Positions 1,940 through 53,036 of a stretch of DNA of 64,000 nucleotides are shown in pieces. This stretch comes from Pseudomonas entomophila. GTDB lineage: Bacteria; Pseudomonadota; Gammaproteobacteria; Pseudomonadales; Pseudomonadaceae. Positions within the stretch are counted from its first letter, which is position 1. Each line of letters starts with the position of its first letter. A model generated the notes under the pieces. It had not been told where the DNA came from. It saw only the letters and a list, made by a program, of their open reading frames with translations, and made no database searches. The DNA is taken from contig NZ_CP063832.1 of assembly GCF_023277925.1 (NCBI RefSeq), positions 1,178,001 through 1,242,000 on the forward strand. The letters run 5' to 3'. The position numbers and the translations under genes were made by a program.

Positions 1940-1974
1940 GCGCCGTCCTCAAGAACAACAAAGAGATCCTGACC

Positions 1975-2631: not shown

Positions 2632-2649
2632 TCCTTAAGGTGTCGTGAG

Positions 2650-3516: not shown

Positions 3517-4512
3517 TCAGAAGGCGCTGGGCTGGTAGCGCATCAACTGGCTGCCGGACTGCTCGAACCGGAAAGGCACATGCACCAGGTCGCGCAGGCT
3601 TTCGCGGACCTGGGCCTGCAACTCAGGCTTGACGAACAGCAGCATGAAACCGCCACCGCCAGCCCCCAGCAGCTTGCCGCCAATGGCGCCAGAAGAGCGG
3701 GCGATGGTGTAGAGGTGGTCGATGTCGTGGTTGCTGACCTGGTTCGACAGGTTTTTCTTGAGCAGCCAGCTGCAATGCAGCAACTCACCGAAGGCCTCCA
3801 GCGGCCCTGGGCCCTGGAGGATGGCGAGTGCCTCGTCGACCATGGCATGGAGGCGGGTCAGCTCAGCGAGACGGTTGCCCAGGTTGTCGATCTTCGATTG
3901 GGCAACCTTGGCCGCGATCCTGGAAAAACCGGTGAAAAACAGCATCAGGTGGGCTTGCAGTGCCTCGAGACGAGGCCTTGGCACAGCGGCCGGGGTGACG
4001 GTGAAACCGCCTTCGCCGCGCAGGAAGTCGATACGGTTGAAGCCGCCGACCGCGGCAGCGATCTGGTCCTGGGAGCCGACGCTTTCGCCGATAACCTGCT
4101 GCTCCACATGCTGGGCCAGCCTGGCCAGCGCTTCACGGGCGATGACGTGGCCGTGCAGGGCCTTCAATGCGTGCAGCAGGCCGACGGTGAAGGAGGAACT
4201 GGAGCCCATGCCCGAGCGGGCAGGCAGGTCGCCGTCGACATGGATCTCGAGGCCGTCCTCGCAGCCCAGGTACTGCAACACGGCGCGCACCGCAGGGTGT
4301 TCGATCTCGCGGGGGTGCATCACGTTCTCGATCCGTGAATAGGCTATCCGGAACCGGTGTTCGAAGAACGGCGGCAGGTGGCGGCAACTGATATAGCAAT
4401 ACTTGTCGATGGCGGTAGACAGTACCGCACCGCCATGGGCTTTGTACCAGGCGGGATAATCCGTGCCGCCGCCAAAGAACGAAATACGATAAGGCGTGCG
4501 GGTAATGATCAC
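3517..4512 (-). CDS. GHMP-family sugar kinase, HddA-like (heptose 7-phosphate kinase type)
   Basis: A GHMP-superfamily small-molecule kinase of about 331 residues. The N-terminus, VIITRTPYRISFFGGGTDYP, is the hallmark of D-glycero-D-manno-heptose 7-phosphate 1-kinases (HddA). The ATP loop is SGMGSSSSFTVGLLHAL and the C-terminal motif GAIGGKLLGAGGGGFMLLF. I place the start at the GTG at 4512 because family proteins begin at this point and a GGGAG site lies upstream; an ATG 16 codons further upstream (4560) is possible but has a poorer ribosome-binding site. It forms a two-gene unit with the nucleotidyltransferase. Isomerase and phosphatase steps would have to come from LPS-core genes elsewhere. 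Confidence 0.82.
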   Translation of the reverse strand: MIITRTPYRISFFGGGTDYPAWYKAHGGAVLSTAIDKYCYISCRHLPPFFEHRFRIAYSRIENVMHPREIEHPAVRAVLQYLGCEDGLEIHVDGDLPARSGMGSSSSFTVGLLHALKALHGHVIAREALARLAQHVEQQVIGESVGSQDQIAAAVGGFNRIDFLRGEGGFTVTPAAVPRPRLEALQAHLMLFFTGFSRIAAKVAQSKIDNLGNRLAELTRLHAMVDEALAILQGPGPLEAFGELLHCSWLLKKNLSNQVSNHDIDHLYTIARSSGAIGGKLLGAGGGGFMLLFVKPELQAQVRESLRDLVHVPFRFEQSGSQLMRYQPSAF

Positions 4513-4936
4513 AGGCGAGCGACTCCCAATATACAACGGTGTATGTGGGGCGTGATTCATTGTGCGGGCGACTCACAATGCAAGCGCCATCCATTGCTGT
4601 TTTTGCTAGGCGAGTTCCTTGCCTAAGTTATGGCTTTGTCGGCGGGTGTTATATAAAAAGCAATAGTCATATTGTGGGTCTGAGAAGAAGTTTATTTGCA
4701 AGTTGGTGGCGCACTGAATGCCCAGCTTAGCAGTGCTGCAAGCCCTTTCTGGCGCCGTTTGTCGGCGGTTTTTTTGCTGCTTTTGCATGGGTTTGGCAAA
4801 TATTGCGCTGCTGAAAACCAGTGCTATCGTAGAACTTCACCACGCGCCTGGCAGGCAGAACGTTATCGGGTTCGGGGTTAGGGAAGAGTCAAATTATTGG
4901 TCCCACGGATATGCAGGGAAGTAGGGGCGTACGGCC
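4513..4936. promoter_or_regulatory. AT-rich divergent promoter region between the heptose genes and the aminocyclitol operon
   Basis: This 424-base stretch holds no convincing gene; its short reading frames are overlapping and uncharacteristic. Composition drops sharply in AT between about 4600 and 4830 (for example ATATAAAAAGCAATAG near 4650), unlike the GC-rich genes on both sides. Promoters for both transcription units and any regulator sites must lie here. I could not assign exact -10 and -35 boxes. A purine-rich GAAGTAGGGG lies about 9 bases before the radical SAM ATG. Confidence 0.6.
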
Positions 4937-5995
4937 ATGACTGATAGTATTCAGTTTATTCAGCTTAAAAGTGCCTGTCGTGATCCGGTGACCCATGCCG
5001 AATTACCGCGTGCTATTTACGTCGAGTTGACGGACCGCTGTAACCTGGTGTGCCCGATGTGTCGGTGCAGCCCGGTCAAAGGCAATATCCTGCCGCTGCC
5101 GATGTTCAAGGAAATAGCGGCCGCGCTGTTTCCCACCGCCGAATTCGTCGACCTGCGTGGTTGGGGCGAGAGCACCATCGTGCCAGGCTTTCTCGACTAC
5201 CTGGACGTGGCGCTGGGTTATCCGGTCAAGCTCAAGCTGATCACCAACGCGGTGGTGCGCAAACCGCAGCTGTGGCAGCGCCTGGGGCATGAGGGCATCA
5301 CCGTGGGCGTCTCGTTCGATGCCGCCACGGCGCCGCTGTTTCGCGAACTGCGTGGTGGCGCCGAACTTCGGCAGGTGCTGGGCAACCTGTGCCTGCTCAC
5401 CGAGGCCCAGCGCGAGGCCGGGTATGACCCGGCGGAAAAACTCTACCTGTGCGTGACCGTCAGCGGGCGCAACCTCGACGAACTGGAAACCATCATCACC
5501 CTGGGTATGGAACTGGGCGTACGCCGGTTCAAGTTCGAACCGCTGTGGGCGCCCGACGAAGACCCCAATCGCCTGGAGTTCCACGCCGAAAAGGTCGCCA
5601 CGGTAATGGCCCGACTTGGTCAGTTGCAACGTCGGCACCACCTGCAACTCGAGCTGTCGGCGGCACTTTCCGCGGCCAGCATCCAGCACCACGCCGTGAA
5701 CAAGGTCTGCATCCACCCCTGGCAATACCTCTACATCAACAGCCGTGGGCGCCTGGGCTTCTGCGACCACCTCAACGGCCGCGACGAGTTCACCTTTGGT
5801 GACTGGCAGCAGGGCGGTTTCGCGGCCTTCTGGAATGGCCCCGAAATGCGCCAGTTGCGCGCCGAGCATCACCAGCGCCTGGGCGGGCCGGCCATCAAGC
5901 AGTGCGCCGATTGCAACTGGTGCTACGAGCGCCGCTACATGGACCTGGAAGACTGGCTGGAGCCTGAGTGGGCCAACTATAGGGTGACCCTGTGA
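4937..5995 (+). CDS. Radical SAM enzyme with SPASM-type C-terminal cluster domain
   Basis: A 352-residue radical S-adenosylmethionine enzyme. The [4Fe-4S] motif CNLVCPMC (CxxxCxxC) lies near residues 35-45 in the usual AIYVELTDRCNL context. The C-terminal part has more cysteines (CIHPWQYLYI, LGFCDHLNG, CADCNWC), as in SPASM/Twitch domains that hold auxiliary clusters. BtrN, which oxidises 2-deoxy-scyllo-inosamine in butirosin biosynthesis, belongs to this broad group, and a 2-deoxy-scyllo-inosose synthase is encoded six genes downstream. A cyclitol dehydrogenase or other sugar-modifying role is therefore plausible but inferred. This is the first gene of the long rightward operon; its stop overlaps the next start (GTGA). 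Confidence 0.88.
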   Translation: MTDSIQFIQLKSACRDPVTHAELPRAIYVELTDRCNLVCPMCRCSPVKGNILPLPMFKEIAAALFPTAEFVDLRGWGESTIVPGFLDYLDVALGYPVKLKLITNAVVRKPQLWQRLGHEGITVGVSFDAATAPLFRELRGGAELRQVLGNLCLLTEAQREAGYDPAEKLYLCVTVSGRNLDELETIITLGMELGVRRFKFEPLWAPDEDPNRLEFHAEKVATVMARLGQLQRRHHLQLELSAALSAASIQHHAVNKVCIHPWQYLYINSRGRLGFCDHLNGRDEFTFGDWQQGGFAAFWNGPEMRQLRAEHHQRLGGPAIKQCADCNWCYERRYMDLEDWLEPEWANYRVTL

Positions 5996-6813
5996 ACCTT
6001 CGTGACATGACCCTCGACCCACCCTGGCTGGCGAACTTCTACGACCCGGCCTTGTTCGATGCCAGCGCCGGGGACGCCGACTCCGCGAACACCATCGCCT
6101 GGTACCGCGAGCAGTTGCGCGGGCCGGCGCGCCAGGTGCTGGACATCGGTTGCGGTACCGGGCGCCTGGCTCTGCCGCTGCTGGAGGATGGCCACAGGGT
6201 GCATGGGCTGGACATCAGCGAGGCGATGCTGGGCTACCTGGCCACCAAGGCCGGTGCCCTCGCGCCACAGGTTCGGGCCCGTTTGAGCTGGGCCCACGGC
6301 AGTGTGCTCGACGAATCACCGCGCGAGACCTTCGATGCCTTGGTCGCCGCCGATGACTTCGTGACCCATTTCGACCTCGACCAGTTGCGGCGCTTCATGG
6401 CCATCGCCCATGCCGCGCTGCGCCCCGGTGGCCAGTTGCTGACCGATATGCGTGAACGCTCGGCAGCCCGCCTGGCTGCCGCCGCGGCGCCATTCCCCAA
6501 GCCCCTGCAGAGTCATGGCCTGGCGGGTGGCATCGCCAGTGAACAGGGGCCACTGCATGTGGCGATGATGGGGTGGGAGGAGTACGACCCCGAGAGCCGT
6601 TGGCTGGTCAGCCACCAGTTGTACAGTTTCATCGATAACCAAGGGCGCGAAGCGCGGCGCGACTGGAAGACCATCCGCCAGCGTAACCACAGCAATGCCG
6701 AACTGGTCGAAGCCGCGCAACGAGCGGGCTTCGTGGTCGAGCGTATCAGCGGGCGCGACCTTGCTGGCGCGCCCGGTGAACAGGGTGGGTTCTTTCAGCT
6801 GGTGCGCCCATGA
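5992..6813 (+). CDS. Class I SAM-dependent methyltransferase
   Basis: A 273-residue class I methyltransferase. The SAM-binding motif I, VLDIGCGTGRLALPLLEDG, is followed by GLDISEAMLGYL (acidic motif II) and the motif IV region FDALVAADDFVTHF. The fold resembles small-molecule O- or N-methyltransferases of natural product clusters, not the 16S rRNA methyltransferases that give aminoglycoside resistance, although that is judged only from motif style. The GTG start overlaps the radical SAM stop and the 3' end overlaps the next gene by ATGA, so translation is coupled. The likely substrate is the cyclitol or a sugar of the pathway. Confidence 0.88.
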   Translation: MNLRDMTLDPPWLANFYDPALFDASAGDADSANTIAWYREQLRGPARQVLDIGCGTGRLALPLLEDGHRVHGLDISEAMLGYLATKAGALAPQVRARLSWAHGSVLDESPRETFDALVAADDFVTHFDLDQLRRFMAIAHAALRPGGQLLTDMRERSAARLAAAAAPFPKPLQSHGLAGGIASEQGPLHVAMMGWEEYDPESRWLVSHQLYSFIDNQGREARRDWKTIRQRNHSNAELVEAAQRAGFVVERISGRDLAGAPGEQGGFFQLVRP

Positions 6814-7901
6814 AGCCTGCGCTGGAACTGATCTGGGTGGTGCCCTCGCTGGCAGGCCTGGGTGGCAGTGAGTACGCCGCCGTGACCTTTGCCCGGCTGG
6901 TGGCTGGCGACGGTCATCGGGTGCGCTTGCTCACCGGGCCTGAAGTGCACCCGGCGTGGCAGGCACTGTTACAGGTCGATGGCCTGAGTGTGGTTCAGGA
7001 CCCGGATGGCAGCGCGATGGTCATGGCCGACACGCTGGCGTGCCTGCTGGCGGCACGGCCCGCCGACCTGATCCAGTTCATGCCCATCGAAGCCCATTGC
7101 CTGGCGTGGCTGGACCGGTGCTCGGCGGTGCCTGTCATCGGTTGGGAGCCCACCGACCTGAGCCCCCGATGCTGGTGGTTGCCGAGCGCGTTGAAACAAC
7201 GCCTGCGCGAGCTCGACGGGCTGTTGGTGCTCAACCCCGACGCAGCCCTTCACGCTTGGGAGCATTACACCTTTCGAGGGGATGTCACCATCCTGGCCAA
7301 CACCTTGGTCAGTGTGCCGGCCACGGTAACGGCGCGTCAGCATGATGGGCTGGTGGTGGGGTGTATTTCGCGCTTGTCGGCGGAAAAGGGCCTGGAGTTC
7401 CTGCTGGCGGCCTTCGCCTTGTTGCTTGAGCGCTGCCCACGCGCCACCTTGCGCCTCTGGGGCGAAGGCGAGGATCAGCAGCGCCTGGATAATCTGGCGC
7501 GGATGCTGGGCATCGAGGCATCGGTGGATTTTGCCGGCGGCTTCGAACCTTTCGGTGGCATCGATGAAGTGGCCGCGAGCGCCGATGTGTTCGTGCTGAG
7601 CTCACTGTTCGAAGGCGCGCCGGTCGCACTCCTGGAACTGGCGGCCAGGGGCCGGCCGCTGGTGGCCTCGGCGACCAGCGGTGCGCGTTGGGTGTGTGGG
7701 CAGGCGTACCCATGGCTGACGGCGGTCGGCGACACCCGCGCCATGGCTGATGCCTTGGCGGAAGCACTGAATGGCCAGGGCCGCAAGCTACTGGGCGAGC
7801 AGTTGCGCGAACGTTTCGAGCAGCAGTTCGCCCCGGCCCGGGCGCTGGCCACCCTGAACGCGGCCTATGCCCGTGTGCTGGCGGCAGGTCCGCGGCCGTG
7901 A
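6810..7901 (+). CDS. Glycosyltransferase family 4
   Basis: A 363-residue GT-B retaining glycosyltransferase. The N-terminal acceptor domain opens WVVPSLAGLGGSEYAAVTFA with the Gly-rich donor-side loop. The C-terminal donor domain has VGCISRLSAEKGLEFLLAAF and the E-x7-E motif in LFEGAPVALLELAARGRPLVA. GT4 enzymes attach the first sugar to 2-deoxystreptamine in known aminoglycoside clusters (BtrM/NeoM), which fits the neighbouring cyclase and aminotransferase genes. The ATGA overlap with the methyltransferase and the GTGA overlap with the deacetylase indicate one transcript. Acceptor and donor are inferred from context. Confidence 0.9.
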   Translation: MKPALELIWVVPSLAGLGGSEYAAVTFARLVAGDGHRVRLLTGPEVHPAWQALLQVDGLSVVQDPDGSAMVMADTLACLLAARPADLIQFMPIEAHCLAWLDRCSAVPVIGWEPTDLSPRCWWLPSALKQRLRELDGLLVLNPDAALHAWEHYTFRGDVTILANTLVSVPATVTARQHDGLVVGCISRLSAEKGLEFLLAAFALLLERCPRATLRLWGEGEDQQRLDNLARMLGIEASVDFAGGFEPFGGIDEVAASADVFVLSSLFEGAPVALLELAARGRPLVASATSGARWVCGQAYPWLTAVGDTRAMADALAEALNGQGRKLLGEQLRERFEQQFAPARALATLNAAYARVLAAGPRP

Positions 7902-8605
7902 GCAGTCGAGGCGAGGCCTGGTTGCTGTCGCCCCACTGCGACGACATCGCCTATTCGTTGGCGGGGCGCTTGCTCAGCGGGGCGGAGCACGGGCAGGGCG
8001 TGCGCCTGTTGACGGTCTTTTCCCAGAGCCGTTTCGCCCCTTACGCGCCGGCGCTGAACACCCAGGCGCAGATTTCCAGCTGGCGCCAGGCTGAAGAAGC
8101 ACGTTTCTGCGCCGCGCTGCACTTGGCCCACGAGTGCCTGCACCTGGCCGAAGCCCCGCTGCGTGGCTATCCCGATGTCGATTCGCTGTTCATCGCCGAC
8201 GGCGCCACGCCTGACGATCCGGTGCTCGAACGCCTGGAGCGCTGGTTGCGCCAGCGCTTGCAGCAGGGCCGGCCGGCCAGGGTCTATGCGCCGCTGGGGA
8301 TAGGTGGGCACGTCGACCACCTGCTCACGCGTCGGGCGGCGCAACGGGTGTTCGCCGATGTCTGCCCGCTGCTGTTCTATGAAGACTTGCCCTATGCCGG
8401 CGAGTTGTCGGCAGGCGCCCTGGCGCAGCAGTTGGCGCGCACCGCCCAGGGCTTGCGGCCATTGCTCACGCCGTTGGCCGACTGGCTGCCGGAAAAGCTC
8501 AGGCACCTGGCCGGCTATGCCTCTCAGGTGGCGGCAAAAGACCTGGCCTCGGTGGCAACCCATGCTCATTTGATTGGAGGTGAACGTGTCTGGACCCTTG
8601 GCTGA
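7898..8605 (+). CDS. PIG-L/LmbE family deacetylase
   Basis: A 235-residue PIG-L family zinc-dependent N-deacetylase. The metal site is SPHCDDIAYSLAGRLL, a Cys-for-Pro variant of the usual HPDD with the His and both Asp kept, plus GGHVDHLLTRRAAQ with the second His-x-Asp-His pattern. In butirosin and neomycin pathways the homologue (BtrD/NeoD) removes the acetyl group from 2'-N-acetylparomamine after the GT4 step. Its position directly after the GT4 gene suggests the same two-step logic: transfer N-acetylglucosamine, then deacetylate. Its 3' end overlaps the next gene by 20 bases. Function on a cyclitol glycoside is inferred. Confidence 0.88.
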   Translation: MSSRGEAWLLSPHCDDIAYSLAGRLLSGAEHGQGVRLLTVFSQSRFAPYAPALNTQAQISSWRQAEEARFCAALHLAHECLHLAEAPLRGYPDVDSLFIADGATPDDPVLERLERWLRQRLQQGRPARVYAPLGIGGHVDHLLTRRAAQRVFADVCPLLFYEDLPYAGELSAGALAQQLARTAQGLRPLLTPLADWLPEKLRHLAGYASQVAAKDLASVATHAHLIGGERVWTLG

Positions 8606-9395
8606 CATCTGTATCCTGACCTTCGCCGTAGATCGCCCACAGGCGTTGGCGCGTTGTATCGCCAGCGTCGCCGCGCAGCAGGGCGGCCTGCGTGTCGAGC
8701 ATCGCATCCTGTCCGAACGGGCCATGGCCCTGCGGACGCATCCGGCGTTGGTGGGGTGGCGGGAGTGGGTGGTGTGGCAGCCGCTCGAAGGGCAGCCGTT
8801 CCAAGGCGCTTCCTCACAGCGTATGGCTCGCCTGCGGGCCGCGGCGCTGGCGCAGGTGGAGCAGCCGCTGGTGGCGTTCCTCGATGATGACAACGCACTC
8901 GAACCTGAGCACCTGCAGACCCTCTGCCAGTGCCTGGAGGATCCACAGCTGCAGGCGGCCCATGCCTGGCGCCAGGTGCTCAACCCGGACGGCACGCCGT
9001 TCCCGTTCACCCATTACCCCTGGCATGACGACCCGGTGGTGGCCGACAGGATGTACCGCTGGGGCCTGGCCCACGGTGTTTTCAGCCCCGGCAGCCCAGT
9101 GATGCGTGACGGTGTGCGCGGCCCCGAGGAGCCCGACAGCTGCGCCACCGTGGACATGAACGAATGGCTGTTCCGCACCGAGTGCCTGCGCAACCTGGGC
9201 TTCGACGAGCGCTTCAGCCAGCGTGAGGTGGACCTGCGGGTCGGGGAAGACGACAAGCTGTTCCAGCGGGTGCGCGAGCAAGGGGTGAAGTTCGCCTGCT
9301 CGCAGCGCGCCACCGTGCGCTACTACCTGGGCGGCGTGTCCAACCTGCGCCAGACCAGCGGGCCGACCCAGGCCAGCGCCGGAGCCCACCCATGA
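8586..9395 (+). CDS. Glycosyltransferase family 2
   Basis: A 269-residue GT-A fold glycosyltransferase. The N-terminus, ADICILTFAVDRPQALARCI, is typical of GT2, and VAFLDDDNALEPEHL carries the D-x-D type metal/nucleotide site. The C-terminal part contains MNEWLFRTECLRNLGFDERF and GEDDKLFQRV, the ED acceptor region. I choose the GTG at 8586 because a GGAGG site sits 5 bases ahead; a TTG 12 bases upstream lies on the ribosome-binding site itself. It presumably adds a second sugar, possibly the activated heptose from the divergent genes. The donor is not determined by the sequence. Confidence 0.87.
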   Translation: MSGPLADICILTFAVDRPQALARCIASVAAQQGGLRVEHRILSERAMALRTHPALVGWREWVVWQPLEGQPFQGASSQRMARLRAAALAQVEQPLVAFLDDDNALEPEHLQTLCQCLEDPQLQAAHAWRQVLNPDGTPFPFTHYPWHDDPVVADRMYRWGLAHGVFSPGSPVMRDGVRGPEEPDSCATVDMNEWLFRTECLRNLGFDERFSQREVDLRVGEDDKLFQRVREQGVKFACSQRATVRYYLGGVSNLRQTSGPTQASAGAHP

Positions 9396-10666
9396 GCGGC
9401 CTGGCATTGTTCGGTGGCACTCCGGTGCACAGCCAGGCCTGGCCACAATGGCCGCAGTCCACGGTGAAAAGCGAACGCGCCCTGCTCACGGTGATGCGCA
9501 GCGGGCGTTGGTCGGTCAGTGGCCTGGAGACCGACGGCAACCCGACCTGGGACCAGCGTTTTGCCGAGGCCTTCGCCCATTACAACGGCGTGCGCCACTG
9601 CGTGCCCACGGCCAACGGCACCAGCGCCTTGATGGCGGCCATGCAGGCGCTGGGCATCGGCGCCGGGGACGAGGTGATCGTTCCCGGGCTGACGTGGGTG
9701 GCCTGCGCCAGCGCGGTGCTGGCGATCAACGCGGTGCCGGTCATCGTCGATATCGATCCCCACTCGCTGTGCCTGGCCCCCCATGCGGTGGAGGCGGCGA
9801 TCGGCCCACGCACCCGGGCGATCATGGTGGTGCACCTGTACAACGCCATCGCCGACCTGGACGCGCTGCTGCCGATGGCTCGCCGCCATGGCCTGCACCT
9901 GATCGAGGATTGCGCCCAGGCCCATGGCGCCCAGTGGCGGGGGCGGCATGTGGGGACGCTTGGCGCGGTCGGCACCTTCAGCATGCAGAACGGCAAGGTA
10001 CTGACCAGCGGCGAGGGCGGTGCTTGCATCTGTGACGACCCCGACCTGGCCGCGCGCATCTTCCGCCTGCGCGCGGACGGTCGGCAACGGGTCACCGAGG
10101 CGGTGCCGGCGGGCTACATGACGCTGGAGGAGGGCGGCCAGGGCTTTGCCCAGAACGCCTGCCTCAGTGAACTCCAGGCGGCGATCCTGCTCAGCCGCCT
10201 GGAAGACCTGGACCACGAGAATGCCCAGCGCGCCCGCCAGGCCCAGCGCTTGCGCCTGTTCCTGCAGGAGATTGGCGGGTTCGCCTTCCAGCAGAGCGCC
10301 GCAGGCACCGAGCGGACCACCTTGTACCACTTTCCGGTGCGCCTGGAAGCCCCGGAGTTCGACGGCGTGCCAATAGAGCAAGTGTGCCGGGCACTGTCCG
10401 CCGAACTGGGCTGCTGGGTGCACCCGCCTTATCCGCCGATGGACGCGTTCGCGGTACTCGCGCCCGGCCATTCCCAGCGCCTGTTGACGGCCCCGCGCGT
10501 GCCGCAACCGCTGCGATGCGCCCAAGCCGCGCATCGCCGGCATGTGATGCTGGCCCATTGGTTGTTCCTCGCCGACGACCAGGCCATGGTCCATGTCGGG
10601 CAGGCGTTCGCCAAGGTCAAGGAGCACGCGCACGAACTGCGTGCGGGTCAAGGAGAGGGGCTATGA
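9392..10666 (+). CDS. DegT/DnrJ/EryC1/StrS aminotransferase, cyclitol aminotransferase type
   Basis: A 424-residue PLP-dependent sugar/cyclitol aminotransferase. Landmarks are TANGTSALMAAMQALGIGAG, VIVPGLTWVACAS, LIEDCAQAHGAQW and the PLP-lysine segment TFSMQNGKVLTSGEGGA. The Q-N-G-K lysine context and the AWPQWP N-terminus resemble the StsC/BtrR/NeoB and AHBA synthase branch, which uses glutamine to aminate scyllo-inosose, 2-deoxy-scyllo-inosose or aminoshikimate-type substrates. The cyclase that would make the ketone substrate is encoded immediately downstream with an ATGA overlap. This gives a self-consistent route to 2-deoxy-scyllo-inosamine. Substrate assignment is inference from family branch and neighbour. 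Confidence 0.9.
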   Translation: MSGLALFGGTPVHSQAWPQWPQSTVKSERALLTVMRSGRWSVSGLETDGNPTWDQRFAEAFAHYNGVRHCVPTANGTSALMAAMQALGIGAGDEVIVPGLTWVACASAVLAINAVPVIVDIDPHSLCLAPHAVEAAIGPRTRAIMVVHLYNAIADLDALLPMARRHGLHLIEDCAQAHGAQWRGRHVGTLGAVGTFSMQNGKVLTSGEGGACICDDPDLAARIFRLRADGRQRVTEAVPAGYMTLEEGGQGFAQNACLSELQAAILLSRLEDLDHENAQRARQAQRLRLFLQEIGGFAFQQSAAGTERTTLYHFPVRLEAPEFDGVPIEQVCRALSAELGCWVHPPYPPMDAFAVLAPGHSQRLLTAPRVPQPLRCAQAAHRRHVMLAHWLFLADDQAMVHVGQAFAKVKEHAHELRAGQGEGL

Positions 10667-11841
10667 ACTCGCTTTTGCAGAACCCACCGGCACGGCGGTC
10701 GACCCAGGAGCAGCCGGTACGGACCCTGGATTTCCGCTTTGCTGAGCAGCGCATGGAGATGCTGTTGGGTTACCGCTTCACCGCACAGATTGCCCAGCGG
10801 GTCAGCGAGCAGGCCGCGCATATCCTGCTGGTGGCCGATCGACAGGTCTACGAACTGTGGGGCGCGCCGCTGCTCGATGCCCTGCAACGCCACTTGCCGG
10901 TAACCTGCCTGCTGGTGGACGCGATTGAGGCGGCCAAGACCCTCGGCGTGCTGCAGGGCTTGCTCGACCAGGCCGTGGCCGGTGGCGCGACCCGGCGCTC
11001 CGTGGTGGTGGCGTTCGGCGGCGGCCTGACCGGCAACCTGGCCGGCATGTTGGCTGGCCTGCTGTATCGCGGCATTCGCCTGGTGCACATTCCGACCACG
11101 CTGCTGGCGATGTCCGACTCGGTGCTGTCGCAGAAGCAGGCGGTAAACGGCGCCGCTGCGAAGAACATGTACGGCCTGTATCACCCGGCGAGCCTGTGCT
11201 GCGTTGATGTGCAGTACCTGCAAAGCCTGCCGGCACCGGCGTTCTCCGCCGGCGTGGTGGAACTGTGCAAGAACGGCCTGGCCTTCGATGCCGCGACCGT
11301 GCCGGCGCTCGAACGCCTGGTGGCGGATACGTCGCCGGCCGGCTGGATCGAGCTGGTCGAGCTGGGGATCCAGGCCAAGCAGCAACTGCTGCTGGACGAC
11401 CCGCTGGAGCATGAGCTGGGCGTGGTGCTGGAGTACGGGCACACCGTCGGTCACGCCCTGGAGCTGGAGACCGGCACCCTGACCCACGGCCATGCCGTCG
11501 GCCTGGGGATGCTGGTGGCCGCCGCCATCGCCCGGGAACGTGGCTGGCTCAGCGCACAGGAAGAACACCTGCATGCTCAATTGTTGCTGCGCTGCGGCGC
11601 GCCGCTGGGCCTGGAACGCTCGCCGTCGTTCGACCAGGTCATGGCGCGTGTCCGCCAGGACAACAAGCGCGGGCGCATTCGCCTGAACGCTGGGCACTAC
11701 CCCTTCGTGCTGCTGCGCGGCATCGGCCAGCCCGCCATGAGCCAGGGGCAGCCGCTGGTCGGGGTGGATGAAGGTGAGATCCGTCGGGCCTATGCCAAGT
11801 TGCAAGCGGGCTACTACACCGCGCTGCACCTTGCCGAGTGA
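10663..11841 (+). CDS. 2-deoxy-scyllo-inosose synthase-like cyclase (3-dehydroquinate synthase superfamily)
   Basis: A 392-residue sugar-phosphate cyclase that would convert glucose 6-phosphate to 2-deoxy-scyllo-inosose, the committed step to 2-deoxystreptamine. Diagnostic stretches are VAFGGGLTGNLAGMLAGL, RGIRLVHIPTTLLAMSDSVL, SQKQAVN, VVELCKNGLAFD, YGHTVGHALELE, DNKRGRIRL and LLRGIGQPAM. In 3-dehydroquinate synthases the corresponding segments read GGGVIGD, DSSVGGKTAVN and AEVIKYG, whereas BtrC/NeoC read GGGLTGN, DSVLSIKQAVN and CELVKN. It thus sits with DOI synthases, not AroB. The ATG overlaps the aminotransferase stop. Acting on an unusual related sugar phosphate remains possible. Confidence 0.9.
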   Translation: MNSLLQNPPARRSTQEQPVRTLDFRFAEQRMEMLLGYRFTAQIAQRVSEQAAHILLVADRQVYELWGAPLLDALQRHLPVTCLLVDAIEAAKTLGVLQGLLDQAVAGGATRRSVVVAFGGGLTGNLAGMLAGLLYRGIRLVHIPTTLLAMSDSVLSQKQAVNGAAAKNMYGLYHPASLCCVDVQYLQSLPAPAFSAGVVELCKNGLAFDAATVPALERLVADTSPAGWIELVELGIQAKQQLLLDDPLEHELGVVLEYGHTVGHALELETGTLTHGHAVGLGMLVAAAIARERGWLSAQEEHLHAQLLLRCGAPLGLERSPSFDQVMARVRQDNKRGRIRLNAGHYPFVLLRGIGQPAMSQGQPLVGVDEGEIRRAYAKLQAGYYTALHLAE

Positions 11842-11878
11842 CCCATCCTGACCACCGCTCGCGATAAGGACCATCGTG

Positions 11879-13237
11879 ATGCCCGAACCGAATTTCAACC
11901 TGGCCTGGGTGGATGAAGCCCGCTTGGCCAATGCCATCGACCAGGCCAACCGCGAGCAGCGGCCGCTATACCTGATCGTGCTCGCCACCAAGCCGTGCTA
12001 CATCAAACTGGCCAGTCTCGTGTTGGCCTGCGACGCGTTGCAGTTGCCGTTCCTGTTGGTCGACACCGGCCAGCACTATGACCCGGTGCTGACCCAGGCC
12101 AGGGACGAGCTGGGTTACCAGCACCTGCTGGCGGTGAGCTTCGGCATCCGTGGGACCTTGCTGGGCCGCACGGCGCAGTTGGCGCTGGCCATCGAGTGCC
12201 TCGACACCCGGCTCAAGGCCGGCGGCCTGCGCCAGAGCGCGGTGCCGCTGGTGTCCGGGGACACCGCCACGGCGGCGATGTTCGCCCAGTTCTGGTACCT
12301 GGCCCATGGCGCGCGCAGCGTGCACATCGAGGCGGGGCTGCGCAGCTACGGGCCGGATCGTGGCGTCTGGGCGAACCTGCAGGACCTGGCCGAGCAACGC
12401 CAGCTGCGTTGGCAGCGGTTTTGCGAGGAGCCGTTCCCCGAGGGGGTCTGCACCACCCTGGCCAGCGTGGTTGGCGACCTGCTGCTGGCCCCGGTGGAGC
12501 GCAATGTCGAACACCTGCTGCGCGAGGGCTACCGGCTGCCACAACTGCGCCAGGTCGGCTCCCTGAGCAGTGACGCGGTGCGCCTGGCCCTGCCGCGGGC
12601 GGCCCGCAGCCCGTTGTTCAGCCTGTACCCGGCGCTGGCTCAGGGGCGCTGGCTACGGGTGGACCTGCACCGGCGCGAGAACATGACCACCCAGGCCTTG
12701 CAGGCGGTGTTGCAGGGGCTGGGGCGACTGGCCATCGACGGTGTCCAGGTGGTGCTGGTGCGCACCAACGCGCTGGACGGTGCGCTGGCCCAGCACTCAC
12801 TGGCTGGGCTGCTCGACGAAGTTCAGCGCCAGGGCGTGGTGGTGCAACCGATGTGGCCGCACTACACCGATGTCATCCACTTCCTCACTTCCGGCCATTG
12901 CCTTGCGCTGTACACCGACAGTGGCGGCCTGCAAGAGGAAGCCACGGTGCTGGGTGTGCCCTGCCTGACCTGCCGCCTGAGCAGCGACCGCCCGGAAACC
13001 GTGCTCGACGCGCAGAGCAACCTGCTGTTGCCGCCACTGTCGGCGGCGTTCGTCCATCGGCACCTGCGCGACATTCTGGCTCGCCCGCTGGCCGAGGCCT
13101 GGCCGGGCTTGCAGCGCGGCCGCACGCTCTATGGCCAGGCCGTGGGGCAGGGCATCGCCGAGCTGCTCAAGGTGTACGAGGCACCTGCCGTGCTGGCGGG
13201 CGCCCAGGCGCGGTACCTGCCTCGGGAGCCAGCATGA
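11879..13237 (+). CDS. UDP-N-acetylglucosamine 2-epimerase (WecB) family protein
   Basis: A 452-residue member of the non-hydrolysing/hydrolysing UDP-GlcNAc 2-epimerase family. Visible family segments are LVDTGQHYDPVL near the N-terminus, SVHIEAGLRSYGPD, RVDLHRRENMTTQAL, and YTDSGGLQEEATVLGVPCLT followed by SSDRPETV. It is about 70 residues longer than typical WecB. An AAGGA site precedes both a GTG (11876) and the ATG I chose (8-base spacing). The gap from the cyclase gene is only 37 bases. It may epimerise a UDP-amino sugar donor for one of the glycosyltransferases, or release a free sugar. It is not part of the known DOS pathway, so its role here is open. Confidence 0.8.
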   Translation: MPEPNFNLAWVDEARLANAIDQANREQRPLYLIVLATKPCYIKLASLVLACDALQLPFLLVDTGQHYDPVLTQARDELGYQHLLAVSFGIRGTLLGRTAQLALAIECLDTRLKAGGLRQSAVPLVSGDTATAAMFAQFWYLAHGARSVHIEAGLRSYGPDRGVWANLQDLAEQRQLRWQRFCEEPFPEGVCTTLASVVGDLLLAPVERNVEHLLREGYRLPQLRQVGSLSSDAVRLALPRAARSPLFSLYPALAQGRWLRVDLHRRENMTTQALQAVLQGLGRLAIDGVQVVLVRTNALDGALAQHSLAGLLDEVQRQGVVVQPMWPHYTDVIHFLTSGHCLALYTDSGGLQEEATVLGVPCLTCRLSSDRPETVLDAQSNLLLPPLSAAFVHRHLRDILARPLAEAWPGLQRGRTLYGQAVGQGIAELLKVYEAPAVLAGAQARYLPREPA

Positions 13238-15126
13238 ACCGCCCGGCGCAGGTCACCACCGCCCAGTTGGCATCTTCGCGTCTGTGCGGTGGGCTCGACG
13301 GTGGTGCGGGCGACCTGCGGCCCTGGCTGGCGCCGATGTGCCAGGCCCTGGGGCTCGACAGCGAGCACCTGCCGTCGCTCCAGCACAGCCATACCCTGTG
13401 CTGCGGCGAGCTGCTCAACCGCGCCCAGATGCAGGGTTGGCTGGGCCTGGCGGGGCAGCCCCATACCGATGGCGAGCTGCTGACCCGGGCGTTCCTGGCC
13501 TGGGGCGAGGTGACGACCCTGAACCGGATCAGCGGCAAGTTCGCCCTGGCGCACTGGAACGCCGAGCGGCAGCGGCTGGTCCTGGCGTGCGACCGTACCA
13601 CGCAGTTCACGGTGTTCTACGGTCGCCTCGCCGGGCATTGGTTGTTCAGCAGCGACTTCGGTGCGTTCCGGCCGTTGCACCGGCAGCTGGAAGTCGACCG
13701 GCAGACGTTGGCGCTGTTCGTGCGCTATGGCTTCGTCCCAGCGCCCCATAGCTTCTACCGGCAGGTGCGCAAGCTGCGGCCCGGTCACTGGGTGGCGCTA
13801 TCGGTACATGATTGCGGCGAAGTGGAGCAACAACCCTACGCACCTTCGTCCTGGGCATACCTGCCCACCACCCAGCGCAAACCCATCGAGACAGGGCTCG
13901 CCACGGCAACCTTCGAGCACCATCTGCTGGCGGCCATCGAGGCCCGCCTGGATGGCTCCACGGCAGGCGCTTTCATGTCTAGCGGGTTCGACTCGACCCT
14001 GGGCGCGGCACTGCTGCAGAAAGCCCTGGGCAAGCCCATCCACACTTTCACGGCGGGCTTCCAAGGCATGCATTGCAACGAGGCCCCGGACGCCGCTGCC
14101 ATCGCTCGGCACCTGGGAACCTTGCACCACGAGATCCGTCTCGATGACGCGGCGCTTGCAGGCGTGGTGCCTGACATCCCCAACGCCTATGGCGAACCCC
14201 TGGCCGACTCGTCGCAACTGCCCTCGATGCTGCTGGCCCGCGCCGCAAGCGAGTACGTCGACACGGTGTTCGCCGGCGATGGCGCTGATTGTGTGCTGGG
14301 CGAGTACGCCCAACGCCTGGAGATGTACCGCAGCGTGCTGCGGACGCGCAGCCTTCCAGCCTGGACTCGAACGGCGCTGGGCCGTGGCCTGGTGCTGGCC
14401 GGGCGCTGTTCGACGCCGTTGGGCACAGGCCTGGCGCGTTGGATCGGGCGGCGCCTGGCGCTGGACGACCCTGGGCGTGATGCCGTCGAGGATGTTCGCG
14501 GGGTGCTGGCGGCCGGCGGACTGGGGCAGGTGGAGCGCGTGCTGGGCGCAAGGGTGCTGGACCCCGCGCGGCTGGTACCAGGCGGGCCCTGGCAGGATGT
14601 TCCCTGGCCAGGGAGCGGCGCCGAGCCGCCGCGCTTGTCGGTGCTGCTCGACCAACTGGTACAGGTGCAGGGGGAAATCCTCATCGCACCGGTGACGCAC
14701 AAGACCCTCGGTGCCTGCGACCACGCCGGCCTGCGGGTGGCCATGCCGTTTCTCGACGGGGCGCTGCTGGATTTCGCCCGAGGTCTGCCGCATCGCCTCA
14801 AGCACCGCCGGGACACCTCCAAATGGCTGCTGCGCCAGGTGGCCTACCAATACATCCCCAGGGCTCTGCTGGAGCGCAAGAAGCTGGGCTTCAGCATCTG
14901 GGTGAGCCCATTGTTGCGCGACTACATGCGCGACTGGGCCGAGCACCTGCTGGCGCCCGGGCGCCTGCGTGACGAAGGCTTCTTCGACGTGGCCCAGGTG
15001 CGTTGGGAGTGGACGCGGTTGCTGTACCACGGTGAGCACTTCAGGGAAGAGCGGCTGTGGTCGGTGCTGATGTTTCAACAATGGCTCGACACCAGCCGGG
15101 CCTACAGTGTGCGGGGGAACACATGA
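13234..15126 (+). CDS. Asparagine synthetase-family amidotransferase/ligase lacking the N-terminal Cys
   Basis: A 630-residue protein with the two-domain layout of class B asparagine synthetases. The N-terminal half resembles the glutaminase fold (KFALAHWNAERQRLVLACDR, HWLFSSDFGAFRPL), but no Met-Cys start is present, so it cannot use glutamine in the usual way. The C-terminal synthetase domain has the ATP-pyrophosphatase loop FMSSGFDSTLGAALL (S-S-G-F-D-S in place of S-G-G-x-D-S) and VFAGDGADCVLGEY. Proteins like this, such as beta-lactam synthetase, adenylate a carboxylate and form an amide bond with an internal or external amine. It overlaps its neighbours by ATGA on both sides. An amide-forming tailoring step is inferred. 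Confidence 0.82.
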   Translation: MNRPAQVTTAQLASSRLCGGLDGGAGDLRPWLAPMCQALGLDSEHLPSLQHSHTLCCGELLNRAQMQGWLGLAGQPHTDGELLTRAFLAWGEVTTLNRISGKFALAHWNAERQRLVLACDRTTQFTVFYGRLAGHWLFSSDFGAFRPLHRQLEVDRQTLALFVRYGFVPAPHSFYRQVRKLRPGHWVALSVHDCGEVEQQPYAPSSWAYLPTTQRKPIETGLATATFEHHLLAAIEARLDGSTAGAFMSSGFDSTLGAALLQKALGKPIHTFTAGFQGMHCNEAPDAAAIARHLGTLHHEIRLDDAALAGVVPDIPNAYGEPLADSSQLPSMLLARAASEYVDTVFAGDGADCVLGEYAQRLEMYRSVLRTRSLPAWTRTALGRGLVLAGRCSTPLGTGLARWIGRRLALDDPGRDAVEDVRGVLAAGGLGQVERVLGARVLDPARLVPGGPWQDVPWPGSGAEPPRLSVLLDQLVQVQGEILIAPVTHKTLGACDHAGLRVAMPFLDGALLDFARGLPHRLKHRRDTSKWLLRQVAYQYIPRALLERKKLGFSIWVSPLLRDYMRDWAEHLLAPGRLRDEGFFDVAQVRWEWTRLLYHGEHFREERLWSVLMFQQWLDTSRAYSVRGNT

Positions 15127-16169
15127 GCGCGATAAGAACGGCCTTGATCGGCTGCGGCACGGTGTGCGACTGGCACCTGGAAGAGCTGGACAAGCTCAGG
15201 GACCTGTTCGACGTGCGCTGCCTGTGCGACAACGTGCCGGGCAAGGCCCAGGCGCTGGCGCAGAAGTGGCGGGTAGCGGGTTGGAGCGAGGACTTCCAGC
15301 AGGTGCTGGATGACCCGCTGATCGAGTGCGTGTGGATCCTGACCCCGCCGTTCAACCACGCCGAACTTGCCATCGCCGCGCTGCGGGCCAACAAACACGT
15401 GTTCTGCGAAAAGCCCCTGGCCAAGACCGCGGCGCAATGCCAGGAGCTGGTGCGGGTGGCCGAGGACAGCCAGCGGGTGTTCCTGCTGGGCTACCCGATG
15501 CGCTTTTCCGCCGATGCGGGCAACCTGCGCAAGGTCGTGCAAAGCGGCGTGCTGGGGCGCCCGGTGGTGCTGCGCGATGTCTGGGCGGTGTGCAAGGGCG
15601 CCGACAGCCCGGCCATCCACGATGCCGAGCAGGGCGGCGGGGTGGTGTTCGAGCACACCCACTGGCTGGACTTCGTGACCTGGATGTTCGGCCCGGCGCG
15701 CAAGGTCTACGCCTCCACCCGCAAGCTCAAGCTCGGGCCGACCAGCGCCCACGACACCGTGGTCGCGGTGATCGATTTCGTCTCCGGCGACCAGGCGCTG
15801 TGGTCCGAGTCCTGGGCCGCCAGCGGCCTGGGCTGGGAGCCCTTGTGCGTGGGGCGCGCCGGGATCCGCCCGACCTTCGATGTGGTCGGCGAGCAGGGCG
15901 TGCTGCAGTTTCCCAACGCCCAGGGCGAGAAGGTTCTGAGCTTCTACCGCTATGACCGGCCCGAGCAACCGGTCAGCACCTGGACCTGGCAGCACGACTG
16001 GGGCACCAACGACGACGCCTTCCCCAACGAACACCGCCACCTGTACGCCTGCATTCGCCATGGCACGCCGCCGGTGTGCCAGGCCCGCGACGGCCTGCGC
16101 GCTGTGCAGTTGGCCGAAGCCATTCTCGAATCCAGCCGCAGCGGCCAGCCGGTGTATCTGCAGCCATAG
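15123..16169 (+). CDS. Gfo/Idh/MocA family NAD(P)-dependent oxidoreductase
   Basis: A 348-residue dehydrogenase. The Rossmann motif is at the extreme N-terminus (TALIGCGTVCDWHLEEL), followed by HVFCEKPLAKTAAQC with the signature E-K-P, and FEHTHWLDFVTWMFG with the catalytic-site His. These enzymes oxidise cyclitols (inositol 2-dehydrogenase) and amino-cyclitols in several aminoglycoside pathways, so it is a candidate to oxidise the cyclitol ring or a nucleotide sugar before a second amination. The ATG overlaps the stop of the synthetase gene. With the radical SAM enzyme it gives the cluster two possible oxidation catalysts. Confidence 0.9.
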   Translation: MSAIRTALIGCGTVCDWHLEELDKLRDLFDVRCLCDNVPGKAQALAQKWRVAGWSEDFQQVLDDPLIECVWILTPPFNHAELAIAALRANKHVFCEKPLAKTAAQCQELVRVAEDSQRVFLLGYPMRFSADAGNLRKVVQSGVLGRPVVLRDVWAVCKGADSPAIHDAEQGGGVVFEHTHWLDFVTWMFGPARKVYASTRKLKLGPTSAHDTVVAVIDFVSGDQALWSESWAASGLGWEPLCVGRAGIRPTFDVVGEQGVLQFPNAQGEKVLSFYRYDRPEQPVSTWTWQHDWGTNDDAFPNEHRHLYACIRHGTPPVCQARDGLRAVQLAEAILESSRSGQPVYLQP

Positions 16170-16192: not shown

Positions 16193-19100
16193 GTGCAGCA
16201 GTTCAATCAGATCGTATCGGTCAATTTCCAGGGCGTGGTGGTGGTGTTCGCCCGCGAAGTGGCGGGCAAGCAGGCCATCTACTTCGATGTGCTCGGCCAG
16301 GACGTCGACAGCGACGACGATGACCTCGACTGGTCGGGCTTCACCGCGGTGACCTTCACCGAGCAGGTGCGCCAGGTGGGCATGAGCATCATCGCCGTGG
16401 ACTGTGACACCTCGACCCTGGTGCCGTCGCTGGCGCCGTTTCGGGTGGTGACCGACCAGAAGTACATCTCGGTCATCCAGCAGTCCATGAACGGCACCCT
16501 GTACGTGAACCGTTTTCGCCTGCTGAAGACCAAGTCGGGCACTGACCAGAAGACCACCGACTATGACCTGTCACCGGCGTGGGAAGTCCGCTACGCCCGC
16601 AGCCACAAGGAAGACGTGCCCGCCGACAAGTCCGACAAGCAGGACTTCCTCGACCCCGACGGCCAACCCTTCCTGGAGCCTTCCCTCGAGCTGTCGATGA
16701 TCACCGGTGTCACCGATGGTCATTTCGACGCGCTGCTGCTGCCGATCGCCGGCAGTGAACGTTTCGCCTGGCAGTTCCTCGCGCTGGATGCCGGCGCCAC
16801 GTCGGTGAAGCTGTTCAACTTTCCGGCCACCGACAATGGCCTGTTCGACGTGGCAGGCAAGCCCGTGGGCAGCGACCTGCGCATCCAGCCGGACAGTGTC
16901 TTCAGCGTGGCCAAGGCCGGTACCGACACCGCGCTGGCGATCACCTCGGCGCCCCGCGCGGTGACCTACGTCAAGCATGAGAAGGTGGTGCAGCCCGACG
17001 GTTCGAGCATCGGCGTGCGCCGCGCCACCCGGGTGATGATCACCCTGACTGTCGCCGACGGCACCGTCACCCTGGACTCGGCCATTGGCGTGAACGGTAC
17101 GATGGCCAATCTATCGGGGGTGATCGTCACCTCCAACATCGTCCCGGCCGAATTCGACCTGCGCTTCGACGGCGTGTCCAGCCTCAACCTGCTGCCGCCC
17201 GCCAGTGGCGCCAACCCGCTGGCCATCAAGGGGCCGTTCGAGATCGGCCTGATGCTGGCGCCGGGGGTCAAGGGCGACGGGATGAAGGTGCTGGGCGGGG
17301 CGCCCCAGGCCGAGGAGAAGACCCTCGCGCCTTATGTCTCGATCGTCGATGGCGACAAGCTCGAAGTGGGTTTTGGCAATGGCAGCGCGCGGGTCAGTTG
17401 CCGCACCTTGCACCCGGTGCTGTTCAACGACGTGTGGAGCGACCTGCACATCCGCTACGCGGGCAAGGGCGACAACCCCTTCACCCTGATGGTGAACGAC
17501 GCGCCAGTGCCGCTCACACCCTGCAGTACCACGGCCGAGCCCTGCGGCACGGCCATGGCGCTGGTGGCGGCGGGCAGCAACGGCTTTGTCGGTGCGTTGA
17601 AGCGCCTCGCTGTCACGGTGGCGGGCACCGCCGTGGTGCAACTGGACTGCAACAGCGTCAACTACAGCGACAACCCGCCGACCACGCTCAACCAGGCCGC
17701 CTCGGGCGTGAAAGTAACGGTGCAGGGCGCGCGCCTGGAGCCGTCGGCTTCGCCGGTCAACAGCGACATGAGCGGGGCGTTCTACATCGACGCCATGGGC
17801 CTGACCTACTACGCCGGCCTGGCCGGGTTCATCCGCCCGAACGCGGCCACCTGCCTGATCGACGGCTCCGACGGCCTGCTGCACCTGTACTACCCCGGCG
17901 ACGGTAACCTGCTGACGGTGGCGCAGTTCTCCACCCAGTCGGCGCGCGCCACTTTCACCGTCGACTGGACCACGCAATGGGGCAGCAGCGGGGCCAGGGC
18001 GGCGGCGTTGGAGCTGCCCGCGACTTCGGTGGCGCTGTACCGTGGCGTGAGTTGCGAGCACTGGGCGCCGGTGGCCGCGCGGCTGTTGGTGGCCCCGGAC
18101 ACCACCCAGAGTGGCTTCGTCAACTTCGTCGCCCACCGGGTGGGCACCTACATGAACAGTACGCGGATCACGGTCGCGGCCTCCAGCGTGTCCGAGCTGC
18201 TCTGCGACATCCACGTAGAGGCCGCGCAAAGCGTCGGCACGGAGACCTGGCGGGGCCTGCCACGGGATATCGCGCAACTGACACAGGTCTGGAACGGCGC
18301 CGCTTCCAACAACCCGGACGACCCCCAGGTGCTCGACCAGTCCAAGCCCTATTTCGACTATGCGGGCAGCGCGCCGGCAGTGCTGGTGCCGACCCGCGCG
18401 GGCGGCAACGGCAGCTTCTTCCTGCTGACCTCGGTGCCGCAGTTGCCGGTCACGCTGACCTCGGTGGCGGTCGCTGCCGGGGCCACCGATGAGTTCGTGG
18501 TGGTCGACATCACGATGGCGGCGCCACCGCGCTGGCCGGCCAGTGCCACCCTCAACCAGCACTGGCCCGCCGTGCCGGCGACACCGCGCACCCTGCTCGA
18601 CGTGTTCGCCGGCAAGGCGCCGCACTACGACTACAGCGCCGTGACCACCGCTGGCAGCCGCGCCTACGGGCTGCCCCTGAGCCTGGCGCGTTCCGACGAG
18701 CAGGTCAGCCATGTGCTGGTGTTCGTGCGCGACGAGCAGAAGGACTTCACGGTGACGGTCAGTGCCGCCACGCAGCCGCTGCTGTGCAACGTGGTCATTT
18801 GCGGCGTCAGCCTGCCCGATGTGCCCCGCGAGCAGGCCGGGTTCGTCAAGGTGCTCAATGGCGACGCGGCCGGTTATGCCTACCCCAGCGGTTACCAGGC
18901 CGGCCTGGCGACGTTGATCTATGCCCTGGGCAACGGCTTGAGCGCTGATGTGGTCGACACCCCGGCACCCGCGCCCGAAGGTGGCGCGTTCGCCTATGCC
19001 GGGTTGCTGCGCGTGCTGTTCCAGGGGGCAAGCTACGATGCCCCCGGCATGGCCACCCAGGCCTTGACCCACGCGGCGGTGATCCAGGGCGCGCGGTTGG

Positions 19101-23305: not shown

Positions 23306-23334
23306 CCCACAACCCACGTAAAGGAGCTACGAAC

Positions 23335-23880: not shown

Positions 23881-23901
23881 CCCCTGCAAGGAGCACGCAA
23901 C

Positions 23902-25059: not shown

Positions 25060-25187
25060 CGCAACACATTCCTTGCGCCAGGCTAATACTTTAGTCGTAC
25101 AACCCTCGGTCCAAAGAGGCCCCCAACCGCGCTCCCCCTATAGACTCGCCCGGTAATCCGACAATCCAACAAGAAAAGGACATTACC

Positions 25188-52885: not shown

Positions 52886-52928
52886 TCCATCTCCTATGGA
52901 AGCAAACGTGGTTCTTGCTGTGACTGCG

Positions 52929-52998: not shown

Positions 52999-53036
52999 GT
53001 GTGCATATATGTATCCCGAACGGCCGCAGAAAACCC

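Follow-up and report, generated by a model that had tools for sequence, protein, structure and literature searches.

Pathways to 2-deoxystreptamine are known chemically from actinomycetes and bacilli. Two genes are conserved in all identified 2-deoxystreptamine clusters, a C-type gene for 2-deoxy-scyllo-inosose (DOI) synthase (DOIS) and an S-type gene for a dual-function L-glutamine:DOI aminotransferase (PMC5461906; this and the other papers cited are represented by excerpts). Related clusters have been predicted elsewhere, an aminoglycoside-like one in Pseudomonas fluorescens Ps639 (PMC8719888) and a 5'-hydroxystreptomycin-type one in two Pseudomonas isolates (PMC5953339), and a cluster has been described in Rickettsia buchneri (PMC8770908). 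Here we analyze a locus of Pseudomonas entomophila, an insect pathogen, lying in a 64,000-nucleotide stretch of DNA (contig NZ_CP063832.1, positions 1,178,001 to 1,242,000), hereafter the window, whose own coordinates are used throughout. The locus is built around ten genes at 4937–16169 that include, by sequence, both a C-type and an S-type gene. We read it, with a probability of roughly 0.6, as a biosynthetic island for a 2-deoxystreptamine-type pseudo-oligosaccharide carrying a heptose. No description of this cluster was found in the open-access literature searched, most subscription papers lying outside that scope. The author of a first-pass annotation of the same DNA, unable to search, knew of no such pathway described in Pseudomonas, which is wrong for predicted clusters in view of the Ps639 locus.

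A predicted DOI synthase and its aminotransferase

The cyclase (10663–11841, plus strand) is, on strong sequence evidence, of the DOIS type. Among structures in the PDB it scored 203 bits with BtrC (2d2x), against 125 bits for the top dehydroquinate synthase. Our phylogenetic tree of 59 rows was a quick search with no bootstrap and has long-branched outer rows; it places the protein on the DOIS side (branch support 98% SH-aLRT), within a 15-row clade (99%) that comprises sequences from Pseudomonas, Rhizobiales GAS188, Burkholderia alba, Chitinophaga, Sorangium, cyanobacteria and metagenomes. All six AroB rows fall outside this clade. Comparison of eight AroB-side with 12 other DOIS-side rows, the latter not all characterised, yielded 12 separating positions, and the window cyclase carries the DOIS letter at nine of them (125, 140, 142, 154, 156, 160, 253, 257 and 334). 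BtrC residues K141 and E243, which we take to be catalytic, align with K158 and E257 of the window protein; K158 is common to AroB too, and the position of E257 is occupied by Asn in the AroB rows.

These comparisons make it very improbable that the protein is an AroB paralogue, or a member of another cyclase class, with a merely superficial resemblance to DOIS. Such a reading could draw on the TIGR01357 aroB model (215 bits, below the 305 cut-off), on the AroB letter at position 196 and on the clade itself, of which we know of no characterised member. It is opposed by the PDB scores, the tree placement and the separating positions, which rule out a cyclase within AroB, and by a separate AroB encoded elsewhere in the genome (381 bits). 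The first-pass annotation had proposed to ask whether the cyclase branches inside AroB or another cyclase class: it falls on the DOIS side and outside AroB, in a tree that contains no 2-epi-5-epi-valiolone synthase. A third AroB-family protein of the same genome (G000:C1:1351260-1352237; 221 bits, below the aroB cut-off) lies on a long branch outside both the AroB and the DOIS groups.

A search of 398 Pseudomonas genomes for such cyclases returned 11 matches, one of which (G372) groups with AroB, leaving ten DOIS-like genomes, four with the window type (its own genome included) and six with a second type that is 39–41% identical to the window's cyclase; five of these six are in the tree, the cyclase of G259 having been excluded for one internal stop. 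Another candidate, G127, from a separate search, falls among AroB; the tree does not include G133 from that search. A plasmid origin found no support in the 72,556 plasmid records searched, which gave three distant cyclases at E 1e-50; a DOIS-annotated cyclase on the Sodalis praecaptivus plasmid NZ_CP006570.1 (H2) is 39% identical to the window's.

The DegT/StrS-family aminotransferase (9392–10666, plus strand) is assigned with similar strength, from sequence, to the L-glutamine:DOI type. Its three best PDB matches are all enzymes of that type (5w70, 377 bits; 5w71, 308 bits; 2c7t, 307 bits), and the next family, perosamine synthase, follows at 183 bits. The BtrC-like and BtrR-like roles given to these two proteins at first pass are both supported by sequence.

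Two candidates for the oxidation step

For the E-type gene, encoding 2-deoxy-scyllo-inosamine dehydrogenase, the window offers two candidates, a radical S-adenosylmethionine (SAM) enzyme (4937–5995, plus strand) and a GFO/IDH/MocA-family dehydrogenase (Gfo/Idh; 15123–16169, plus strand), neither of them an evident orthologue of a known one. The radical SAM enzyme had been equated with BtrN in the first-pass annotation, an assignment that the comparisons do not support: the PDB sequence search returned no BtrN up to E 0.1, and at the level of fold BtrN was one match among many SPASM/twitch folds. HygY was rejected as a relative by sequence. The radical SAM protein of the actinobacterial locus L079, which we take to be HygY-like and whose Cys183 bears what is presumably the HygY residue number, gave 17.7 bits (E 0.85) when compared directly with the window's.

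Twitch domains hold one auxiliary cluster on four cysteines (PMC9012708). An alignment of 40 rows, the window protein and 39 others picked from 115, retains the auxiliary cysteines C258, C276, C326 and C329 throughout, and these are predicted to bind such a cluster; Cys323 is present in 27 of the 40 rows. The full SPASM domain, whose motif we assume to contain seven cysteines, was not seen, the conserved auxiliary set being these four. When the best 120 of 751 cyclase matches were paired by eye with the 115 radical SAM proteins, ten family members matched cyclase-bearing contigs of equal size, each of at least 17 kb. An eleventh pairing (1249 bases) was dropped as too short for both genes; short contigs can match by chance. 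The enzyme appears to represent a twitch-type family of its own, with members that share contigs with the window's DOIS clade in several phyla. Homologues of cluster proteins are named in Burkholderia alba, Trinickia terrae and Rhizobiales GAS188. No radical SAM relatives were present in the plasmid records at E 1e-20, nor at E 1e-40 in a sample of 392 genomes of the Pseudoduganella rivuli family, a result that shows little.

By cysteine spacing, residue 265 of the family corresponds to Cys183 of the HygY-like protein. It is Leu in all nine cyclase-linked rows that were aligned (of ten linked) and Cys in 14 of the 40 rows. Because Leu265 replaces the HygY-like cysteine, we favour oxidation as the role of the radical SAM enzyme, a putative 2-deoxy-scyllo-inosamine dehydrogenase. 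Unlikely, if far from fanciful, is the arrangement in which this protein acts as a sugar epimerase, in a role like that of HygY or NeoN, and the Gfo/Idh enzyme makes amino-DOI. It would suit a Gfo/Idh protein that is nearest to inositol 2-dehydrogenases (TIGR04380, 142 bits, below the 355 cut-off), the Gfo homologue found directly after DOIS in the Streptoalloteichus loci L067 and L043, and the conservation of Cys172 in 25 of the 40 radical SAM rows, the nine linked rows aligned among them. It sits poorly with the insignificant similarity to the L079 protein, with the leucine at 265 and with the cyanobacterial loci discussed below, which hold a radical SAM gene and no Gfo homologue at E 1e-6. 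A DOIS locus of Streptomyces atratus OK807 (L053) encodes both a radical SAM relative of 33% identity and a Gfo homologue, and is possibly another pathway type.

Heptose-type genes and the GT2 glycosyltransferase

Two minus-strand genes diverge from the ten, and both they and the link between GT2 and heptose genes had gone unremarked at first pass. The HddC-like sugar-1-phosphate nucleotidyltransferase (2781–3500; Pfam NTP_transferase), a proposed enzyme of GDP-D-glycero-D-manno-heptose formation, scored best with the NCBIfam HddC model NF049965 (169 bits), followed by the mannose-1-phosphate guanylyltransferase model (155 bits). The HddA-like GHMP kinase (3517–4560; NF049969 HddA) is a proposed heptose 7-phosphate kinase. 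Within the ten genes, the GT2 glycosyltransferase (8574–9395, plus strand; Glyco_tranf_2_3) is the candidate heptosyltransferase.

To place these genes we compared the window proteins with 95 sequences (80 loci and 15 stretches), reduced to 87 by removing eight of the window group. Among the 87 are two AroB loci (L105, L106) and one sequence (L107) that runs on from another; the loci reach about 10 kb on each side, some being ended by contig ends. A GT2 homologue (E 1e-4 or better) is present in eight of these sequences, and HddA homologues (six) and HddC homologues (two) occupy the same eight sequences: GT2 with HddA in the actinobacterial L029, L039, L040, L042, L056 and L079, GT2 with HddC in the cyanobacterial L007 and L008. 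Because GT2 occurs only alongside HddA- or HddC-like genes, a heptosylated, methylated 2-deoxystreptamine pseudo-oligosaccharide is the likely product. In the tree, the actinobacterial cyclases (four of the six included) and the cyanobacterial ones sit in different clades, so the association does not simply reflect one inherited cluster; it rests on about three lineages. The heptose step is proposed on the strength of gene co-occurrence. In both cyanobacterial loci, genes resembling those for GmhA and GmhB, with scores below curated cut-offs, lie between the cyclase gene and that of the radical SAM enzyme, and no HddA homologue was found in those two genomes at E 1e-15. In the window's genome, GmhA-like (207 bits, cut-off 209) and GmhB-like (108 bits, cut-off 150) proteins are encoded elsewhere.

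Extent and conservation of the island

As described at first pass, the ten genes at 4937–16169 are co-directional, on the plus strand, and mostly joined by stop-start overlaps. Every one is present as a reading frame, the starts of the cyclase, AsnB-like and Gfo genes being internal ATGs within longer frames, and overlaps occur at eight of the nine junctions (seven of 4 bp, one of 32 bp), the remaining junction being a 34 bp gap between the cyclase and the WecB-like gene. Pfam domains (radical SAM/SPASM, methyltransferase, GT4, PIG-L, GT2, DegT aminotransferase, DHQ synthase, GFO/IDH/MocA, Epimerase_2 and Asn_synthase) agree with the enzymes listed then, to which the WecB-like (Epimerase_2) and AsnB-like (Asn_synthase) genes must be added.

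The identical gene order recurs, at 86–99% protein identity, in three more Pseudomonas genomes, P. entomophila COR5 (its ten proteins 89–99% identical to the window's), G159 and G245, and again in P. lactucae MAFF 301380 at 54–83% identity, calculated by aligned pieces. Because the ten genes recur in the same order in relatives, their grouping goes beyond chance. In the P. lactucae copy four genes (radical SAM, cyclase, AsnB-like and LamG) have broken frames, and the match to PIG-L is shortened; these are either draft errors or signs of a decaying cluster.

The hddC- and hddA-like genes stay beside the ten in all four relatives examined. This bears on whether the locus is an ordinary butirosin/neomycin-like 2-deoxystreptamine pathway, with BtrN as its radical SAM enzyme and with hdd genes that are neighbours and have no share in it. 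Such pathways have the same cyclase and aminotransferase types, and we nonetheless consider this account improbable: in P. lactucae the hdd genes remain with the island, and the LysR and CoA-transferase genes of the window are absent from the roughly 1.9 kb examined beyond them; heptose-type genes lie inside the clusters of the cyanobacterial relatives; and the island lacks the class III aminotransferase and GMC dehydrogenase that the second Pseudomonas type has.

Downstream, three plus-strand genes (16193–24930) follow at gaps of 23, 29 and 21 bp. They encode a LamG-domain protein of 2370 aa (16193–23305; Laminin_G_3, GTG start), a 181-aa protein (23335–23880; no Pfam match, found in relatives L097 and L108) and, as the island's last gene, a 342-aa protein (23902–24930; no Pfam match). 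Copies of the last protein at 98–100% identity occur in just the four of 398 genomes that have the window-type cyclase, with partial relatives (27–34%) in three others. In genome G007, matches to window positions 1800–2632 and 25170–25400 lie only 124 bp apart (L119). Since the outer flanks nearly adjoin there, about 22.5 kb (2633–25169) appears to have been inserted, between CoA-transferase (atoDA-like) genes and an AtoE-like short-chain fatty acid transporter gene. The empty site comes from this one genome of seven others with the right flank; the left flank was not seen in the about 1.5 kb examined in each of the other six. The hddA/hddC-like and the three downstream genes belong to the same island as the ten genes, making a unit larger than 4937–16169.

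The LamG gene is kept with the island in all four relatives examined, and the protein has no PDB relative up to E 0.01. Its position, 23 bp past the last enzyme gene, would fit a pathway that builds a 2-deoxystreptamine-like sugar into a surface glycan or a protein glycan, for instance as decoration of the LamG protein, and releases no free small molecule. GDP-heptose, WecB-like, GT2/GT4 and amidotransferase genes do also occur in glycan loci, and the AsnB-like protein scores best with the XrtA/PEP-CTERM amidotransferase model (211 bits, below the 817 cut-off). Still, we think a glycan pathway a minor prospect, given that no flippase, polymerase, ligase or initiating transferase is found among the Pfam-matched island genes and that members of the LamG family turn up in many unrelated bacteria, among them Tateyamaria, Salipiger, Burkholderia contaminans and Amycolatopsis.

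Between the divergent gene sets, the intergenic region 4561–4936 has 50.8% GC, versus 66.3% for the island, and no sigma-70-like site was found in it. Near the island's right end, about 108 bp at 24951–25058 match their own neighbourhood in reverse complement at 81%, by eye a repetitive extragenic palindrome (REP)-like inverted repeat. Farther along, the window contains an IS110-family transposase gene (29999–31102) and a siderophore-like region (51000–62000) with an ABC transporter, a sigma-70-family factor and a lysine/ornithine monooxygenase, where a large gene at 57461–61774 looks, by eye, like a non-ribosomal peptide synthetase.

Tailoring genes and proposed pathway

The remaining enzymes of the ten-gene run, all on the plus strand, could supply glycosylation and tailoring. 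A class I SAM-dependent methyltransferase (5992–6813; Methyltransf_25) would perform N- or O-methylation of a small molecule, and its homologue adjoins the radical SAM gene in the cyanobacterial clusters. The GT4 glycosyltransferase (6810–7901; Glyco_trans_1_4), proposed to transfer N-acetylglucosamine (GlcNAc) onto the cyclitol, has weak homology to GT4s of DOIS clusters (e.g. L067, E 2.6e-12). The nearest solved relatives of the PIG-L protein (7898–8605; PF02585), a proposed 2'-N-deacetylase, are glycopeptide pseudoaglycone deacetylases (37 bits). The first pass had read the functional set of BtrC, BtrR, BtrN, BtrM and BtrD into the cluster; the cyclase and aminotransferase keep their places, and the GT4/PIG-L pair is compatible with GlcNAc transfer and deacetylation, leaving BtrN as the part that the comparisons do not support.

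The WecB-like NDP-sugar 2-epimerase (11876–13237; 453 aa) retains the motifs GDT, EAGLRS, PFPE, HRREN and DSGG, with 4neq as its top PDB match (63 bits). The AsnB-like protein (13234–15126; Asn_synthase, 190.5 bits), a putative asparagine-synthetase-like ATP-dependent amide ligase, has 7ylz (38 bits) and the beta-lactam synthetase 1jgt (36.5 bits) as its top PDB matches, and SSGFDS at 249. Position 2 of the protein does not hold Cys. All five of five copies keep Cys18 within a CGG motif, and processing or another start site could expose it, which would make a glutaminase half possible. The idea of a glutaminase-dead AsnB was dropped since Cys18 is so conserved. Homologues of the WecB-like and AsnB-like proteins occur in none of the 87 other sequences.

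In the pathway we propose, where substrates, heptose, step order and product are all predicted from sequence, the cyclase would convert glucose 6-phosphate to DOI and the aminotransferase would take DOI to 2-deoxy-scyllo-inosamine (DOIA). The twitch radical SAM enzyme or, as second choice, the Gfo/Idh enzyme would oxidise DOIA to amino-DOI, which the same aminotransferase would turn into 2-deoxystreptamine. GT4 would then attach an N-acetylhexosamine, perhaps 2-epimerised by the WecB-like enzyme, for PIG-L to deacetylate. GDP-heptose could be provided by housekeeping GmhA/GmhB together with HddA/HddC and its heptose attached by GT2, with the methyltransferase and the AsnB-like ligase tailoring the product.

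Several observations weigh against this pathway. Two enzymes, radical SAM and Gfo/Idh, appear to compete for the same step. In the cyclase, beside the AroB letter at 196, positions 199 and 202 carry neither letter, and GT4 and PIG-L match known enzymes only weakly. Both heptose-type proteins score well under curated cut-offs (HddC 169 bits against 300; HddA, model NF049969, 136 bits against 600), and in the cyanobacterial HddC-like proteins the mannose-1-phosphate guanylyltransferase score (129–131 bits) slightly exceeds that for HddC (107–117 bits); because of these scores a sugar other than heptose is possible. WecB, AsnB and Gfo have no homologues in the cyanobacterial loci. Finally, no exporter, resistance gene, regulator or 2-oxoglutarate oxygenase was found among the Pfam-matched island genes (two island genes have no match), and an antibiotic role would be odd with no recognised exporter or resistance gene.

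More tentatively, and at somewhat less than even odds, the locus may belong to a class of 2-deoxystreptamine pathways not recognised before, with members in Pseudomonadota, Cyanobacteriota, Bacteroidota and perhaps Myxococcota (Sorangium homologues). Such a class would be marked by a DOIS clade and a twitch radical SAM family of its own, the latter adding a third type of 2-deoxy-scyllo-inosamine dehydrogenase to BtrN and the NAD enzymes; at least its Pseudomonas and cyanobacterial members would make heptosylated pseudo-oligosaccharides, and Cys/Leu265 would separate epimerases from dehydrogenases. In the radical SAM family, nature provides a way to test what distinguishes twitch epimerases from twitch dehydrogenases. 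Possible roles for the island's product include an antibiotic, an insect-associated metabolite or a glycan.

Comparison with known systems

With butirosin/neomycin-type clusters (BtrC, BtrR, BtrN; C, S and E genes) the window shares the DOIS, the L-glutamine:DOI aminotransferase and the GT4 and PIG-L pair. The butirosin cluster, too, has a twitch radical SAM enzyme, although the sequence search with the window's gave no match to BtrN up to E 0.1. Relative to these clusters the window adds heptose-type genes, GT2 and the WecB-like, AsnB-like and Gfo genes, and is without a class III aminotransferase or GMC dehydrogenase.

A neamine-type arrangement is found in other pseudomonads. The Ps639 cluster shares the DOIS, DOI aminotransferase, deacetylase and glycosyltransferase of the 2-deoxystreptamine pathway with the window, whereas its neamine-type tailoring (a ParQ-like dehydrogenase, a second aminotransferase and a 2-oxoglutarate oxygenase) is unlike the window's, as far as the excerpts of PMC8719888 go. 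In L099, a second-type Pseudomonas locus with a cyclase of 39% identity, the neighbours are a PhyH protein, GT4, GMC dehydrogenase, class III aminotransferase, PIG-L, DOI aminotransferase and an ABC transporter, in keeping with what is reported for Ps639. The second type (L099–L104, six Pseudomonas genomes), neamine-like in L099, the one examined, is probably that of Ps639, and the window cluster is a different type from Ps639's.

The six actinobacterial loci with GT2 and HddA also share the DOIS and the DOI aminotransferase with the window. We call them hygromycin-like because all six have an L079-like radical SAM protein with Cys183; the label is our own, taken from S. hygroscopicus and from genes that we presume to be those of hygromycin. 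Those radical SAM proteins are 67–100% identical to L079's and sequence-unrelated to the window's, the cyclases (four of six in the tree) form a separate clade from the window's, and the WecB-like and AsnB-like homologues of the window are missing. In one of these loci, L040, a GmhA-like gene and a gene for a PhyH oxygenase are present. The orthoester of hygromycin B is made by a 2-oxoglutarate oxygenase, and no PhyH-type domain of that kind was found in the ten genes, hddA, hddC or the LamG protein, two short island proteins having no Pfam match. The likely product of the island would thus join 2-deoxystreptamine and a heptose as in hygromycin-type compounds, but with other tailoring.

The cyanobacterial clusters of Oscillatoria PCC 10802 (L007) and Moorena (L008) share GT2, the aminotransferase, DOIS, an HddC-like protein, the methyltransferase, PIG-L and GT4 with the window. 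Their radical SAM proteins are 54–55% identical to the window's and their cyclases fall in the same clade; they differ in having GmhA- and GmhB-like genes of their own and a different gene order. The island presents a compact co-directional gene set that has cyanobacterial relatives and occurs in pseudomonads, which are easy to handle.

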